Shown here in pieces: positions 5,647 to 9,757 of a stretch of DNA of 23,632 nt. Within the stretch, counting starts at the first letter, position 1, and every line of letters begins with the position of its first letter. The notes below the pieces were generated by a model. The model ran no database searches and was not told the DNA's origin. It saw only the letters and a list, made by a program, of their open reading frames with translations. This DNA comes from a virus, in the IMG/VR virus record IMGVR_UViG_3300017734_000075, positions 1-23,632 of that record, one strand, 5' to 3'. Made by a program: the position numbers and the translations under genes.

Positions 5647-7389
5647 TCAGCAGTTCCAGGCTCTTAATGATTTATTGATTCTGCTATCTGGGTCATTAGC
5701 AGTTTTAGCAGAAGTCAATTTTTTCTTCATTCCTTTCATACGCGCACAAAAGCTCTTTCTACGAGGGTTTCCAGCTTTCTTTGAAGGTCTCTTAAGATCG
5801 CTTCCTGGATTCTGACGTTCATAACTCTTTCTTCCTTTTTCATTCAATCCACCCTCTGGGTTTTTACCGGACTTCTTTTGCCAGTCTTCAGTATGTAGGA
5901 GAGGTTCTCCTGGTTCAAAATCAGAAACTTGGAATGAGAGAAGTCTTGCACCTGGGTAGACTTTTTCAACTTGAGATTGAACGTCTGCTTTATTGGGAAC
6001 AGAAGTTTGTGGGAAGAACATCTTCAGAGAGATGTAGTTACTTCTAAATCTAAAGTAAGCATTTACAATGTTACCAGTCTTTGCTGGAACTCTCACTGCT
6101 TCTTCAATTGCTGGGCATTCTTTGTTACCATGTACCGGACACTCTTCACCTTTGTGATTGTGCATACAACCTTTCTTTTCATCAATATATTCTACCTCTT
6201 CTTTTTTGGTCTTTTTGACACAGTTTGGATATCTCTTTCCAAACATAGTCTTCATACCTTTCTTTTCATATCCCTTCCAGCACTTTTCATCGAGTTCTGT
6301 TCTCCAATCTGAGATCTCAAACTCTTCTTTCTTTGTTTTAGATTTATTACCCCAGTTGGCAGCACCAACCTTACGACACTTAACCAAAGCACCTGAGGCA
6401 TATGCAGAAGGCCATACAGAATAACGAGACTTGACCTTATGGTAACAAGCATCTTTGGTCCCTGCTTTTTCCTGGATTTGTGCTGATTCTTTCATTTTCT
6501 TTGGTTTGTCAGTTGAAACGTAAGTTGGTTTTGCTGCTCCTGTTTTTTGTGGTTGACCTGGATCAGCAGATCTCTTCCTTCTTTGAGCAGATTTTCTTTC
6601 AGATTTGCTCATGCTTGATCTCTTTGCAGATGACACACACTTAGGTGTTGACTTCTGCCCTGGTTGGCGAGCACAGGGTTTACCTGATACAACTTGAACC
6701 CAACCTTTCTTACCATCTTTTGATTTGGACTTACCAAACCAATCACGGAGACCTTCTTCACTTATACCATTACCACCGTTTCCGTTACCATTACCACCAT
6801 TACCATTACCATTACCGTTTCCATTGCCGTTACCATTTTTCTTGGTATCATCAACGGAATGACCATTCTCTTTACGAAGATAACCAGAGCGTCCAACCAT
6901 TTTAAATCCTTTGGGGATTGGTTTACACTTCTTATCGGTGTAACAATAATATTGTCCCTCAGGGCAACGACCATTCTTTTTTTCTTCGTTTACATCACCA
7001 GAAGTATCCTTCTTATGAAGACTCTTATAGAGATGTTTATGAAGAGGTTTTGCTCTATTCATAATCTTATCTTTTTCAGAATAATCTTGCGCTTCATTCA
7101 TTTTTTTGGTCTTCTTCTTCATTGAGTTGATGAATTTTCTATAGACCGCTGCTTCTGAAGTCTTACCCATTTCTCTTGCTCTCTGTTCCATAGCAACTGC
7201 TGCCTGGATTTTGTGAGCATGAGATCTTGATGAATTGCGAATCTTAGAAACAGATGCTTTAGCGGTTGCAACGTCCTTGAATCCAAGTCCATGAATCGTG
7301 CCTTTTGGATTTTCATCCGTATAAAGGTCCGAGTGCTTTTTGGAGTTTGCTGGTTGACCAGATTTTCTTGGAATACGTGGGTTACTCAT
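5647..7389 (-). CDS. Lys/Cys-rich modular protein, candidate head-internal polyprotein
   Basis: A very basic 580-residue protein made of short independent modules. They are: an SRSHAHKIQAAVAMEQRA helix region (about 29-98); a CPEGQYYCYTDKKCKPIPKG unit (142-161); an Asn-Gly repeat (185-208); an RDWFGKS...KKGW...GKPC unit (215-251); a CYHKVKSRY...WPSAYASGALVKCRK unit (315-340); KCWKGYEKKGMKTMFGKRYPNC (segment around 369-390); a Cys/His cluster (408-425); an FFPQTS...VYPGARLLSF domain (431-490); and a C-terminal FCARMKGMKKK...DPDSRINKSLR unit (547-580). I remember several of these as recurring in other cyanophage proteins (DUF5872- and DUF6321-like), which needs a profile search. [LI]-x-E triplets fall in the linkers at E211, E307, E368, E404, E430 and E517, as expected for prohead-protease sites. 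No enzyme motif is visible. The start overlaps the upstream stop (ATGA). Gene prediction is sure. The virion role is inferred. Confidence 0.85.
   Translation of the reverse strand: MSNPRIPRKSGQPANSKKHSDLYTDENPKGTIHGLGFKDVATAKASVSKIRNSSRSHAHKIQAAVAMEQRAREMGKTSEAAVYRKFINSMKKKTKKMNEAQDYSEKDKIMNRAKPLHKHLYKSLHKKDTSGDVNEEKKNGRCPEGQYYCYTDKKCKPIPKGFKMVGRSGYLRKENGHSVDDTKKNGNGNGNGNGNGNGGNGNGNGGNGISEEGLRDWFGKSKSKDGKKGWVQVVSGKPCARQPGQKSTPKCVSSAKRSSMSKSERKSAQRRKRSADPGQPQKTGAAKPTYVSTDKPKKMKESAQIQEKAGTKDACYHKVKSRYSVWPSAYASGALVKCRKVGAANWGNKSKTKKEEFEISDWRTELDEKCWKGYEKKGMKTMFGKRYPNCVKKTKKEEVEYIDEKKGCMHNHKGEECPVHGNKECPAIEEAVRVPAKTGNIVNAYFRFRSNYISLKMFFPQTSVPNKADVQSQVEKVYPGARLLSFQVSDFEPGEPLLHTEDWQKKSGKNPEGGLNEKGRKSYERQNPGSDLKRPSKKAGNPRRKSFCARMKGMKKKLTSAKTANDPDSRINKSLRAWNC
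6766..6837 (-). repeat. Hexamer tandem repeat coding for Asn-Gly
   Basis: About twelve imperfect GGTAAT/GGTAAC-type hexamers encode residues 185-208 of the modular protein (mostly NG pairs, with two GG interruptions). It looks like a slippage-prone flexible linker between two cysteine-containing modules. Confidence 0.85.
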
Positions 7390-7820
7390 TTCTTTTTACG
7401 ACCCGCACAGTGCGCTCTTTGGGAAAATCCCTTAGGATTAGAGCAATCAATACTCTTTTTATATTTATTACTCCAACCTTCTTGGAATTGACCAAAAGTT
7501 TTTCTAACCCTTTGATAGTTATTTTCGTCCATCCTATCTACAAACATCTTGGATGCTGCGACCATACTATCAATAGATGGACCATCGCTTGATTTACTCA
7601 AAGACAACTTCATAACGGGATAGACATTGGAAAATCTCCACTTTGCCTCTCCAGATTCTGCCGGAGTTTGATAGTCCTGTGATAAGTCATCAATGTCTGC
7701 AGGAAACAATCTGGGATCTGCTCCTGCCACTGGACCAGAAACATCAGCGGCGTTTGAATATCCATCACTTCCAACACTATTTGTGGGTTGTTCTGATAAG
7801 AACTGCTTAAAAGATTTCAT
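7386..7820 (-). CDS. 144-residue protein with capsid-targeting-like N-terminus
   Basis: The function is not established. The first ten residues, MKSFKQFLSE, align position by position with the T4 internal-protein capsid-targeting sequence as I recall it (MKTYQEFIAE): M1, K2, F7 and E10 are identical, and S/T, F/Y, Q/E and L/I are conservative. L8-S9-E10 fits the [LI]-x-E cleavage rule of the gp21 prohead protease. The middle is acidic and polar (AADVSGPVAGADPRLFPADIDD). The C-terminus is basic with two cysteines (DCSNPKGFSQRAHCAGRKKK), a tail I recall in other cyanophage proteins. The gene overlaps both neighbours by four bases (ATGA). Context and the N-terminus suggest a protein packed inside the head with DNA, but this is inference. 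Confidence 0.82.
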   Translation of the reverse strand: MKSFKQFLSEQPTNSVGSDGYSNAADVSGPVAGADPRLFPADIDDLSQDYQTPAESGEAKWRFSNVYPVMKLSLSKSSDGPSIDSMVAASKMFVDRMDENNYQRVRKTFGQFQEGWSNKYKKSIDCSNPKGFSQRAHCAGRKKK

Positions 7821-9757
7821 ACTTTTGTTAGCGTCTTTGAAATTTTAAATATCGTTGATGAACTAGAACTTGGAGTTGCTCTAACTCTCACATTACCAGA
7901 GTTAATGTCTGCATCAAATGTTGCAAGAGAACCAGATGTTGTTTTTATTGTCCCAAATTCTGACAGATAAACATTAGTTCCGTCGTGCAAAACGTTTAGT
8001 GTTGTCACCTGATATGATGTTCCTTGCGTTATTTGAATTTGATATTGTGCAGATCTAAAGATACTTGCACTAAAAGTATCTATATTAGACTCAGATGTAG
8101 TAGTAGTTGTCGCTGTTGCAGCTTCAAGTTTTATTATTGTGGTCTGACTACCAGCACCAATTTCTAAACCACTTCTAGCAGTGGCAATACCAATTGAATC
8201 AACATAAGTTACATCATCATAAGTTATTGTTCCACCAACACTCAGATTTCCAGTAAGAGTAAGACTAACTCCGGTTGCACCATCTGCTAATACTGTTGCT
8301 TCTCCAGTACCAGAAAGTGCTGTGCTTGCAATTCCAACCCACTTTGATCCGTTATAGATTAAAAGTTTATCTGTACCTATTCCTGTATCAAAACTTACAT
8401 CATCAAGGTCTTTGATGAATCCAGCACCACCGCCACCAATGGTATAAAGTTGCTGTTGAATTCTATTGATGAATAACTTGTAGTGCTTCGCTAGATCTTC
8501 ATGTGTAGCAAAGTTTTGATCAGTTGGAGTTAGGGGGTCAATATTAGACTCACTAGGATCAGGTTGAATAGGTCTGCTATTGATCTCTTCTTTTAAGACC
8601 TCTTGTTTACCCCTAATCTCTTCAACTATAATTTTTAAGGATCTGAGTCCATCTTTAAATTCATCTCTTACATCACTAATTTGTTTATCATAATATTTTA
8701 CTTCAGGTAATTCTGAGATTTCCTTCTTTAAATCATTAAAATATCCCAGAAGCAGTTCATCAGTTTTTACACTTTCTCTGTTTACTTCTTTAAGATCTTT
8801 CTTAAGTGTCTGTTTAAGAAGATTATACTCACCGAGTAGTTGCTTCTTTAATTTTCTATCATCATCTTTAAACTCTTTATGATGACCCCACATACGCATG
8901 GAGGTCTCTTTGATTTCTTTCCAAATCTTTTCTTTTTCTGTATCAAACCTAGTATTGATACTTTCTCTTAATTCATTAAACTCAGTTCTAGTTTCAAATT
9001 CTTTTTTATCAAAGTGTTCTTCAATTCTATCCAGGTCATATTCAACCTTACCTCTCAGTCCCTCAACAGCATCATGGACTTTAACAAAATCATCATCGAT
9101 GACACTGAAGGTCTTTCCAATCCATGAGAAATCAGGGACTTCATTTACCTCATTGACCCACTTGGGGAATGTAGGAATTTGATCTTGTACTTCTTGAACT
9201 GCTATTCTAAGAGACTGAATATCTTCTTCATAATATTTTGGTTCAGGTAATTCCTCAATATTCTGATTTACCTGCTCAAGGCGTTGTTCTAATATACTGA
9301 TTTGATCGTCATAATATTTTATTTCTGGTATATCTGCAGCATTCTTTTCTATTACTTCTTTTACAAGATCAATCTGTTTACAGATTGCCTCTATCTCTGT
9401 TTCATAGTATCTAACCTCAGGTATCTCATCTCTTACCTGATTAATTTGTTCTGTTAGATTTTCTAATTCTTTATCGTAATACTTTATTTCCGGGATGTCT
9501 GGGATGTCTTTTCTAACATCGTTAATCAGACGAATTAATTCTGGGAATGGTGGAATTATATCTTTTACTTCCGCAAAAGTATTTCCATCAGCATCCTCTA
9601 TAGTTTGAACTGCTTCTTCTATCTCTTCTTCTTCAATATAATCCTCAACAGAAGGTAATTCCGTTTTAACTTCTTCTGCTAAGTAATCTTCGACTGACGG
9701 TAAATCATTTAGATCTACAATATAATCATCAATTGAAGGTAAATCCTCTTTTGACAT
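7817..9757 (-). CDS. Coiled-coil, fibre-like structural protein between gp16 and gp17
   Basis: A 646-residue acidic protein in three parts. Residues 1-45 carry three copies of LPS-[IV]-[ED]-DY (about 6-12, 19-25, 34-40). Residues about 70-395 are mostly charged heptad-like helix broken by five copies of a PE-x-[KR]-YY motif (YY at 93, 117, 148, 175 and 355), likely segmented coiled coil. After a Pro-rich hinge (396-412) and a poly-Gly (441-444) comes a beta-rich C-terminal half: KLLIYNGSKWVGIAST, TITYDDVTYVDSIGIATARSG, and a final domain (559-646, with VLHDGTNVYLSEFGTI), all of a kind common in cyanophage fibres. This suggests a trimeric fibre or whisker anchored by its N-terminus. T4 lacks it at this locus. 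It could fill the role of T4 fibritin (wac), which is absent here. That is inference. Confidence 0.88.
   Translation of the reverse strand: MSKEDLPSIDDYIVDLNDLPSVEDYLAEEVKTELPSVEDYIEEEEIEEAVQTIEDADGNTFAEVKDIIPPFPELIRLINDVRKDIPDIPEIKYYDKELENLTEQINQVRDEIPEVRYYETEIEAICKQIDLVKEVIEKNAADIPEIKYYDDQISILEQRLEQVNQNIEELPEPKYYEEDIQSLRIAVQEVQDQIPTFPKWVNEVNEVPDFSWIGKTFSVIDDDFVKVHDAVEGLRGKVEYDLDRIEEHFDKKEFETRTEFNELRESINTRFDTEKEKIWKEIKETSMRMWGHHKEFKDDDRKLKKQLLGEYNLLKQTLKKDLKEVNRESVKTDELLLGYFNDLKKEISELPEVKYYDKQISDVRDEFKDGLRSLKIIVEEIRGKQEVLKEEINSRPIQPDPSESNIDPLTPTDQNFATHEDLAKHYKLFINRIQQQLYTIGGGGAGFIKDLDDVSFDTGIGTDKLLIYNGSKWVGIASTALSGTGEATVLADGATGVSLTLTGNLSVGGTITYDDVTYVDSIGIATARSGLEIGAGSQTTIIKLEAATATTTTTSESNIDTFSASIFRSAQYQIQITQGTSYQVTTLNVLHDGTNVYLSEFGTIKTTSGSLATFDADINSGNVRVRATPSSSSSTIFKISKTLTKV

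Follow-up and report, generated by a model that had tools for sequence, protein, structure and literature searches.

A modular chain encoded between the terminase genes of T4-like cyanophages, proposed as a head polyprotein processed in the prohead

We analysed a 23,632-base stretch of viral DNA (IMG/VR record IMGVR_UViG_3300017734_000075), referred to here as the window, which is a stretch of a T4-like cyanophage and possibly a fragment of its genome. A 580-residue protein of the T4-GC119 family, referred to as the chain, is encoded between gp16 and gp17, the genes of the terminase subunits TerS and TerL. The chain is probably a head polyprotein of exchangeable cassettes that is processed in the prohead. 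For marine T4-like phages in general we lean, a little less firmly, towards the view that head cargo is carried as exchangeable cassettes, most with their own protease site, joined in one chain in varying order and cut in the prohead. By computation, the modules are shuffled among relatives, a protease-type motif is enriched and positioned at their junctions, most candidate sites lie in predicted disorder, and a companion open reading frame (ORF) upstream begins with a targeting-like segment.

We infer that the chain, which has no targeting N-terminus of its own, enters the prohead as a precursor, where a gp21-type prohead protease would cut it after Glu in [L/I/V/M/F]-x-E (written [LIVMF].E in the counts below). 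The products would be several small beads, mostly basic and mostly Cys-containing, which would remain associated with the DNA or exit together with it; by analogy with the internal proteins of T4, possible roles are DNA condensation, anti-restriction and host take-over. Chains may have grown by fusion of proteins that each bore an N-terminal targeting and cleavage segment. Such fusion would place a cut site before most cassettes and would make cassettes swappable or addable. Added cargo may be seen in the DUF192 domain of S-SM2 and, in S-SZBM1, in the S-AdoMet-lyase domain of a neighbouring ORF.

Modular architecture of the chain

The chain belongs to PHROG 727 (phrog_727, E 2.8e-138) and carries the Pfam domain DUF6321 at its C-terminus (residues 508–578; 78.7 bits against a curated cut-off of 28.5). 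S-SM2_109, at the equivalent position in S-SM2, is annotated GC 119 (T4-GC119), and a relative in S-B43 is annotated 'Phage T4-like structural protein, cyanophage only T4-like GC0119'. Among 50,697 phage records, 501 match the chain, and the names of 468 of these include Synechococcus, Prochlorococcus or cyanophage. T4-GC119, PHROG 727 and DUF6321 proteins are labelled hypothetical, structural or virion protein, and mostly 'hypothetical' among the matches listed. Pfam matches of the chain to MMPL and TrAA12 were under the cut-off and were disregarded. A sequence search of solved structures with the chain gave weak matches only (best E 0.0027), mainly across a Gly/Asn-rich stretch.

Profiles were built for eight segments of the chain (M1 to M8, Table 1) and searched against the ORFs of 321 sequences (320 loci and the window). 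At least one module was held by 326 distinct ORFs, among which modules were lost, duplicated and permuted, with orders such as M2-M1-M3, M5-M3-M4 and M7-M5-M8. DUF6321 (M8) was the last of the eight modules in 246 of 246 ORFs holding it. A preliminary description, made from the letters of the window, had seen small basic Cys-containing modules in the chain; they are real units, shuffled in these 326 ORFs, and M6 is not basic.

The AlphaFold2 model of the chain, calculated from an 83-sequence alignment, consists of folded pieces and low-confidence joins (mean predicted local distance difference test score (pLDDT) 66.8; predicted template modelling score 0.29). Segments with pLDDT below 50 are residues 1–5, 12–37, 126–136, 180–212, 280–286, 297–311, 350–367, 396–434 and 498–510. 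E135, E211, E307, E404, E430 and E501 are inside these segments and E368 is one residue outside, while E99 is within a predicted helix and E517 is at a predicted helix start. When M7 was modelled from residue 429, residues 429–433 had pLDDT below 50 and the first strand began at model residue 12. Cutting at 99, 135, 211, 307, 368, 404, 430 and 501 would give products of 26 to 99 residues with predicted isoelectric points above 9, except for the M6 piece (6.3).

The fold search with the whole chain model gave no match at E ≤ 0.001, and the best Z from VIA was 5.6. With M7 alone the best Z was 5.1 (ribosomal chain 6skf_BT), tied with T7 Gp2 (Z 4.8, 50 residues, 2.5 Å) and too low to be of use. 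In the viral structure library M7 had 10 matches at E ≤ 0.001, among them the S-SCSM1 virion protein and DUF6321 proteins. As a side observation, M7 weakly resembles ribosomal protein LX, T7 Gp2 and a small RNA polymerase subunit (Z at most 5.6), which leaves it unassignable.

Enrichment of the motif at module junctions

The preliminary description had counted 33 Leu/Ile and 37 Glu in the chain and six strict [LI]-x-E triplets (E211, E307, E368, E404, E430 and E517) where about two were expected by chance. Our counts agree (580 residues, 18 Leu, 15 Ile, 37 Glu and the same six triplets), and shuffles gave 2.09 triplets, with P(≥6) = 0.014 in 20,000 shuffles. Since this is modest evidence from a single sequence, the weight of the site evidence lies in the comparative test.

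For that test, 159 full chains were reduced by similarity to 115 representatives before counting, which gave 614 linkers; the set excludes ORFs truncated at a contig end and keeps only chains of four or more modules in which DUF6321 is the last. The columns of E211 and E307 are not conserved (Glu in 38/81 and 2/73 aligned sequences, respectively) because linkers slide, and conservation was therefore tested in junction windows, each consisting of the 14 residues preceding a module and two residues inside it.

[LIVMF].E was present in 426 of the 484 distinct junction windows compared to 207.7 in shuffles, and 23 of 26 junction types carried it in the majority of their distinct windows (counts for M2 to M7 are in Table 1; M8, 55/90). 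Among 31 divergent chains the motif was found in 128 of 146 junctions against 60.8 ± 5.2, and the strict [LI].E in 64 against 30.2. Over all linkers, 1023 copies of [LIVMF].E were counted where shuffles gave 681 (ratio 1.50), whereas the other forward spacings (0, 2, 3 and 4) gave ratios of 1.03–1.09 and [LIVMF].D gave 1.17. The ratio was 0.80–1.32 in other proteins of the loci (TerL, sheath, tube, TerS, gp13, gp14, gp15, gp8, the large ORF, portal, gp3 and gp23).

The residue that follows the motif differs from that following other Glu residues. Ala (0.170 vs 0.042, 4.0-fold) and Ser (0.127 vs 0.044, 2.9-fold) are enriched, and Ile, Leu, Val, Pro, Tyr and Arg are depleted. Ala was not enriched after the motif in TerL, TerS, sheath, gp13, gp14 and gp15 of the same loci. 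In gp22 (3 sequences) the motif ratio was 1.58, with Ala at 0.100 vs 0.051 and Ser at 0.171 vs 0.071; in gp23 (4 sequences) Ala was 0.207 vs 0.098 and Ser was not raised; the motif ratio of gp21 (3 sequences) was 1.73. The preference for Ala and Ser thus resembles that of the gp21 substrate gp22 and, for Ala, of gp23.

The preliminary description had set its idea against homologues that keep the modules and lose the triplets. Such loss was found for the strict triplet, which we reject as a rule among homologues because it occurs in under half of the junctions, and for the E307 column; [LIVMF]-x-E is retained. Relaxing the hydrophobic position (P3) has some support from 69 cyanophage targeting-like N-termini (L 43, M 12, I 12 and V 2, with a search pattern that already allowed L, I, M, F and V), though the six capsid proteins examined all keep L or I at P3 of their presumed site, followed by A, A, Q, Q, A and T.

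Additional cassettes also carry the motif in their N-flanks: DUF192 in 18/26 (9.5 expected), HEY in 8/16 (2.6), RYC in 17/25 (6.8), M0 in 3/4 (0.7), FWHPDP in 1/1 (0.4), and 26/32 past the SKITKA segment (14.4). A second DUF192 anchor gave 0/25, as its offset stopped short of the site, and a lyase anchor found nothing in the chains.

Internal targeting-like stretches were rejected as a general rule for linkers, as the pattern found one (0.04 vs 0.124 per 1,000 residues in the background); by eye, such stretches were noticed in MbCM1_113, SSM1_115, the companion ORF and SSZBM1_194. Separately, the motif D[IVL][IVL]x[PAT][ED]P[LIM] (D or N first) recurs 48 times in linkers and 9 times in the other ORFs of the loci, for example in L318, L210 and L069. 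It could be a binding or targeting peptide.

Candidate cleavage sites

IEE430 followed by Ala, named in the preliminary description as the best gp21-type site, is the strongest single site in the alignment (Glu 81/83, hydrophobic P3 81/83, Ala next 75/83, P2 variable). The E368 column has Glu and a hydrophobic P3 in 82 of 82 sequences. Two further junction glutamates are present in the chain, E301 (MKE) and E501 (HTE); the E501 column has Glu in 80/82 aligned sequences, but the window protein lacks a hydrophobic P3 there. The six triplets had been placed in linkers throughout. This is correct for five, whereas E517 falls within DUF6321 and was rejected as a linker site. Both relaxed sites proposed to separate the first modules, MNE99 and VNE135, are present, but E99 lies in a predicted continuous helix.

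Around the position of E517, M8 reads GGLN-E in 155 of 181 chains (24 were unmatched by the pattern), and GGLN-A in 24 of 25 MAK[ST]PA-type proteins without T4-like neighbours. This split is suggestive, either of cut-site selection or of a single inherited change.

Table 1 Features of the chain and its companion in the window. A slash marks the candidate cut; junction windows are distinct windows carrying [LIVMF].E.
Feature	Position	Strand	Basis
580-residue modular chain, T4-GC119 family, proposed prohead-processed head polyprotein	5647..7389	-	Homology and module profiles
M1, residues 18–97, helical	7099..7338	-	Hidden Markov model (HMM), AlphaFold2
M2, residues 139–178, 3 Cys	6856..6975	-	HMM
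M3, residues 213–300, 2 Cys, mean net charge +11.9	6490..6753	-	HMM
M4, residues 310–352, 2 Cys, helical	6334..6462	-	HMM, AlphaFold2
M5, residues 368–395, 2 Cys, beta hairpin	6205..6288	-	HMM, AlphaFold2
M6, residues 405–428, Cys/His-rich, not basic, mean net charge -0.5	6106..6177	-	HMM
M7, residues 431–498, beta-beta-alpha-beta fold	5896..6099	-	HMM, AlphaFold2
M8, residues 501–580, DUF6321, mean net charge +15.9	5650..5889	-	Pfam, HMM
Candidate MNE99/A after M1, in predicted helix 78–124	7090..7101	-	Glu 17/18
Candidate VNE135/E before M2	6982..6993	-	M2 windows 19/19; low-pLDDT segment 126–136
Candidate ISE211/E before M3	6754..6765	-	M3 windows 47/48; segment 180–212
Candidate IQE307/K before M4	6466..6477	-	M4 windows 80/85; segment 297–311
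Candidate LDE368/K before M5	6283..6294	-	M5 windows 95/96
Candidate IDE404/K before M6	6175..6186	-	Glu 36/55; M6 windows 30/41
IEE430/A before M7, best-supported candidate	6097..6108	-	M7 windows 100/101; outside predicted M7 fold
LNE517/K within DUF6321, doubtful	5836..5847	-	Pfam domain; Glu 70/83
144-residue companion, head-protein candidate	7386..7820	-	4-nt overlap with chain; targeting-like start
Capsid-targeting-like N-terminus MKSFKQFLSE, companion residues 1–10	7791..7820	-	Pattern
Segment like mature N-arm of major capsid protein, from its presumed cleavage position	7704..7790	-	Pairwise comparison
Internal targeting-like stretch KTFGQFQE before M0, companion	7479..7502	-	Sequence
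M0, GWSNKYKKSIDC...CAGRKKK, net charge +8	7389..7478	-	Cassette anchor

Companion ORF and stand-alone module proteins

The preliminary description had noted that the chain has no capsid-targeting N-terminus, and the chain indeed begins MSNPRIPRK. The 144-residue ORF directly upstream, which shares 4 nt with the chain, does have a targeting-like start, and this start resembles the T4 IPIII sequence. Its next segment matches the N-arm of the S-SCSM1 capsid protein from the presumed cleavage position (18/33 identities, pairwise E 2e-9); the corresponding companion/capsid pair of S-SM2 has 22/32 identities (pairwise E 2e-12), and the match of the companion segment to the phrog_696 major head protein is weak (E 0.0082). 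The internal stretch before M0 has a counterpart in SynMITS9220M01, where a stand-alone ORF reads MKTFKQFQE-GWSNKYKK. Capsid targeting sequences of T4 are about 10 residues long and are removed by gp21, and Asp at position 10 inhibits processing, according to PMC9026906.

Targeting-like starts were found on 45 of 3,201 ORFs on the chain strand and on 1 of 4,434 on the opposite strand. Of the 182 loci with a chain, many of them fragments, 44 have such a start. Thirteen companion-type ORFs lie upstream of a chain in the same locus, and 7 of these share 4 nt with it. A targeting-like start is present on all 41 complete proteins consisting of M7 only; the residue after it is Ser in 40 and Asp in one. 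Under a loose pattern, 13 of the 54 M8-only proteins have a targeting-like start; 25 are of the MAK[ST]PA-W type and the remaining 16 are of other types. T4-like neighbours were seen for 10, none and 8 of these, respectively.

Intermediate arrangements are also seen. In L135 a targeting segment runs directly into M8, with LNE-DW at the join in place of the HTE-DW of the window. Three of the 115 representative chains match a loose targeting pattern, and only one of these, the complete chain L307, has a targeting-like N-terminus that looks convincing. In L244 and L262–L265 it is the companion ORF that carries M1. Ahead of the module stand [FY], one or two further residues and EE, and the [SA]NPRIP that comes next agrees to about one residue with the start of the chain itself, M-SNPRIP.

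S-SM2_109 carries the DUF192 domain (E 3.6e-24). In S-SZBM1, the ORF neighbouring the chain (SSZBM1_194, 707 residues, L087:20253-22376, minus strand) has an S-AdoMet lyase domain (PF23780, E 6.8e-8, residues 567–675) after the targeting-like stretch ITYREFIAEG, and may be a virion-delivered anti-restriction enzyme. A similar lyase protein was noticed by eye fused to DUF6321 in L121. Stand-alone DUF6321 genes were observed directly after the capsid gene of the podovirus P-SCSP1o (L322:5959-6213) and between the scaffold and capsid genes of HTVC304P (L324:5983-6201). T7-like phages are not known to have a gp21-type protease.

Virion association of relatives

S-SCSM1_29, 52% identical to the chain across 76% of the query, is labelled 'virion protein'; PMC9602691 reports 45 virion proteins of S-SCSM1 by mass spectrometry, and the label presumably marks these. 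In Table 3 of PMC10665884, S-CREM2 gp137, which is related to the chain through its C-terminal DUF6321 region, is listed with 4 unique peptides and 4.1% coverage, and the adjoining gp136, which begins MQTFSMFFSED, with 8 peptides and 24.1% coverage. For S-SM1, 41 virion proteins are reported in PMC3037559; passages of that paper mention GC119 once, calling it a hypothetical protein of a gene cassette, and do not name it among the 41. Annotation notes in relatives, reading 'similar to Synechococcus phage S-SM1 protein', stand on known virion genes and on GC119, and not on gp16, gp17, uvsY, uvsW and gp22. We read them as probable virion detection in S-SM1. gp21 is annotated in SynMITS9220M01, S-SM2, S-SCSM1 and S-SM1. 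Together, annotation and published proteomics suggest that relatives of the chain are present in virions.

This presence bears on two alternatives. The chain might be a core- or scaffold-like protein, cut as proposed, whose pieces act in assembly or packaging and are mostly expelled at maturation. Its gene lies between those of the terminase subunits, and T4 core proteins are cut to many pieces that are mostly removed (PMC9026906), but relatives labelled or detected as virion proteins, and folded basic Cys modules with an enzyme-like cassette that look like cargo, make this rather improbable. We regard as very unlikely a non-virion DNA-binding terminase helper, with virion detection due to contamination: adjacency to gp17 and the net charge of +66 would fit such a protein, whereas targeting-like companion ORFs, and stand-alone M8 genes next to those of the capsid or scaffold, seen in two of the three podovirus or pelagiphage records examined, would not (in the third, HTVC035P, the neighbours are unnamed).

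Weighing of the processed-polyprotein reading

Several observations weigh against processing of the chain as a head polyprotein. M7-M8 junctions have the motif in only 47 of 81 distinct windows and M1 junctions in 0 of 4. The strict [LI].E is found in only 221 of 484 junction windows, though this is about twice the shuffled number, and over all linkers its enrichment (395 vs 338) does not exceed that of [LI]E (423 vs 349). Reverse motifs are also raised, E[LIVMF] 1.22-fold and E.[LIVMF] 1.11-fold over all linkers, and E.[LIVMF] in short linkers at 358 vs 224, so that part of the signal may be alternating hydrophobic and acidic sequence. Because the chains are related, the counts are not independent. 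Ala is raised after the motif in the portal (0.091 vs 0.036, 5 sequences), and T4 gp20, the portal, is unprocessed according to PMC5694885. Lys follows four of the strict sites (E307, E368, E404 and E517), as the preliminary description had conceded, and is P1' at E368 in 71 of 81 relatives. Among small, targeting-bearing proteins, SSZBM1_191 and SSZBM1_192 are not among the 30 proteins tabulated for that phage in PMC9146016, and SSCSM1_30 has no virion label. The 23,632-base record of the window, which may be a fragment, has no gp21.

Some of these points would suit an intact beads-on-a-string virion protein associated with the head or neck, in which [LIVMF]-x-E serves as binding peptides or boundary caps. 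Lys is conserved at P1' of E368 and E404, the reverse motifs are raised too, and the mass spectrometry reports, in the parts that bear on these proteins, list the whole ORF and not fragments. An uncut protein nevertheless appears unlikely to us, given the enrichment of Ala and Ser after Glu, the weaker signal with Asp, and the targeting-like N-termini of stand-alone module proteins with an E/S or E/D boundary. It is still harder to credit that the motif is an artefact of acidic, hydrophobic-patterned linkers common by descent. The sequences are related, the linkers have a mean net charge of -3.0 and the reverse motifs are raised, but the signal persists in the 31 divergent chains and at permuted junctions, and is weaker at other forward spacings and for Asp. 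Of the processed polyprotein put forward in the preliminary description, the head or virion link and the polyprotein architecture are supported, cleavage and DNA binding by the pieces are predictions, and E517 was misplaced.

Genome context

The genes on the minus strand of the window are in the order gp8, large ORF, gp13–gp15, TerS, fibre-like ORF, 144-residue ORF, 580-residue ORF, TerL, endonuclease VII, sheath, tube and portal. TerS, TerL, endonuclease VII and the fibre match were named by profile matches, and the other neighbours by position relative to annotated relatives. The 646-residue fibre-like ORF (7817-9757, minus strand) begins with repeated acidic LPS[IV][ED]DY segments, and its DADGNTFAEV recurs in chain linkers.

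Relation to known systems

In T4, cleavage by the protease gp21 follows L/I-X-E and breaks core proteins into several fragments (PMC9026906). The companion and stand-alone proteins are like the T4 internal head proteins IPI-III and Alt, which are small and basic, in starting with a targeting-like segment of about 10 residues that ends in an L/I/M-x-E site. The T4 internal proteins are encoded by separate genes with terminal propeptides, whereas here up to eight modules are joined in a chain with a site before most of them. The 580-residue chain also lacks their targeting N-terminus, for which reason we do not file it as a T4-type internal protein. Like the T4 core proteins gp22, gp67 and gp68, it has multiple L/I-X-E sites in one protein; cutting is known for T4 (PMC9026906, PMC5694885) and predicted for the chain. 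It differs from them in its predicted folded, conserved and permutable modules with disordered linkers, and in that relatives are reported in virions.

Inner head proteins of phiKZ and SPN3US undergo Glu-directed processing by gp21-related proteases, as proposed for the chain. The accounts of these phages used here describe long propeptides, sometimes cut at several places, that are removed from the mature protein, and no shuffled multi-bead precursor. With Gag-like precursors, the chain would share the logic only, as a proposed phage counterpart. The open-licence literature search returned no cyanophage head polyprotein among the matches listed and nothing on DUF6321, and no processing or polyprotein reading of T4-GC119, PHROG 727 or DUF6321 was found in the literature searched.

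Significance

If the proposal is true, a very common marine phage gene would gain a function class, and specific N-termini could be named for virion spectra. The head proteolysis of T4 would be extended from trimming to polyprotein processing. A single gene would supply the virus head with a set of interchangeable proteins, and this expandable set, possibly including anti-restriction enzymes, would be delivered with the DNA into cyanobacteria.

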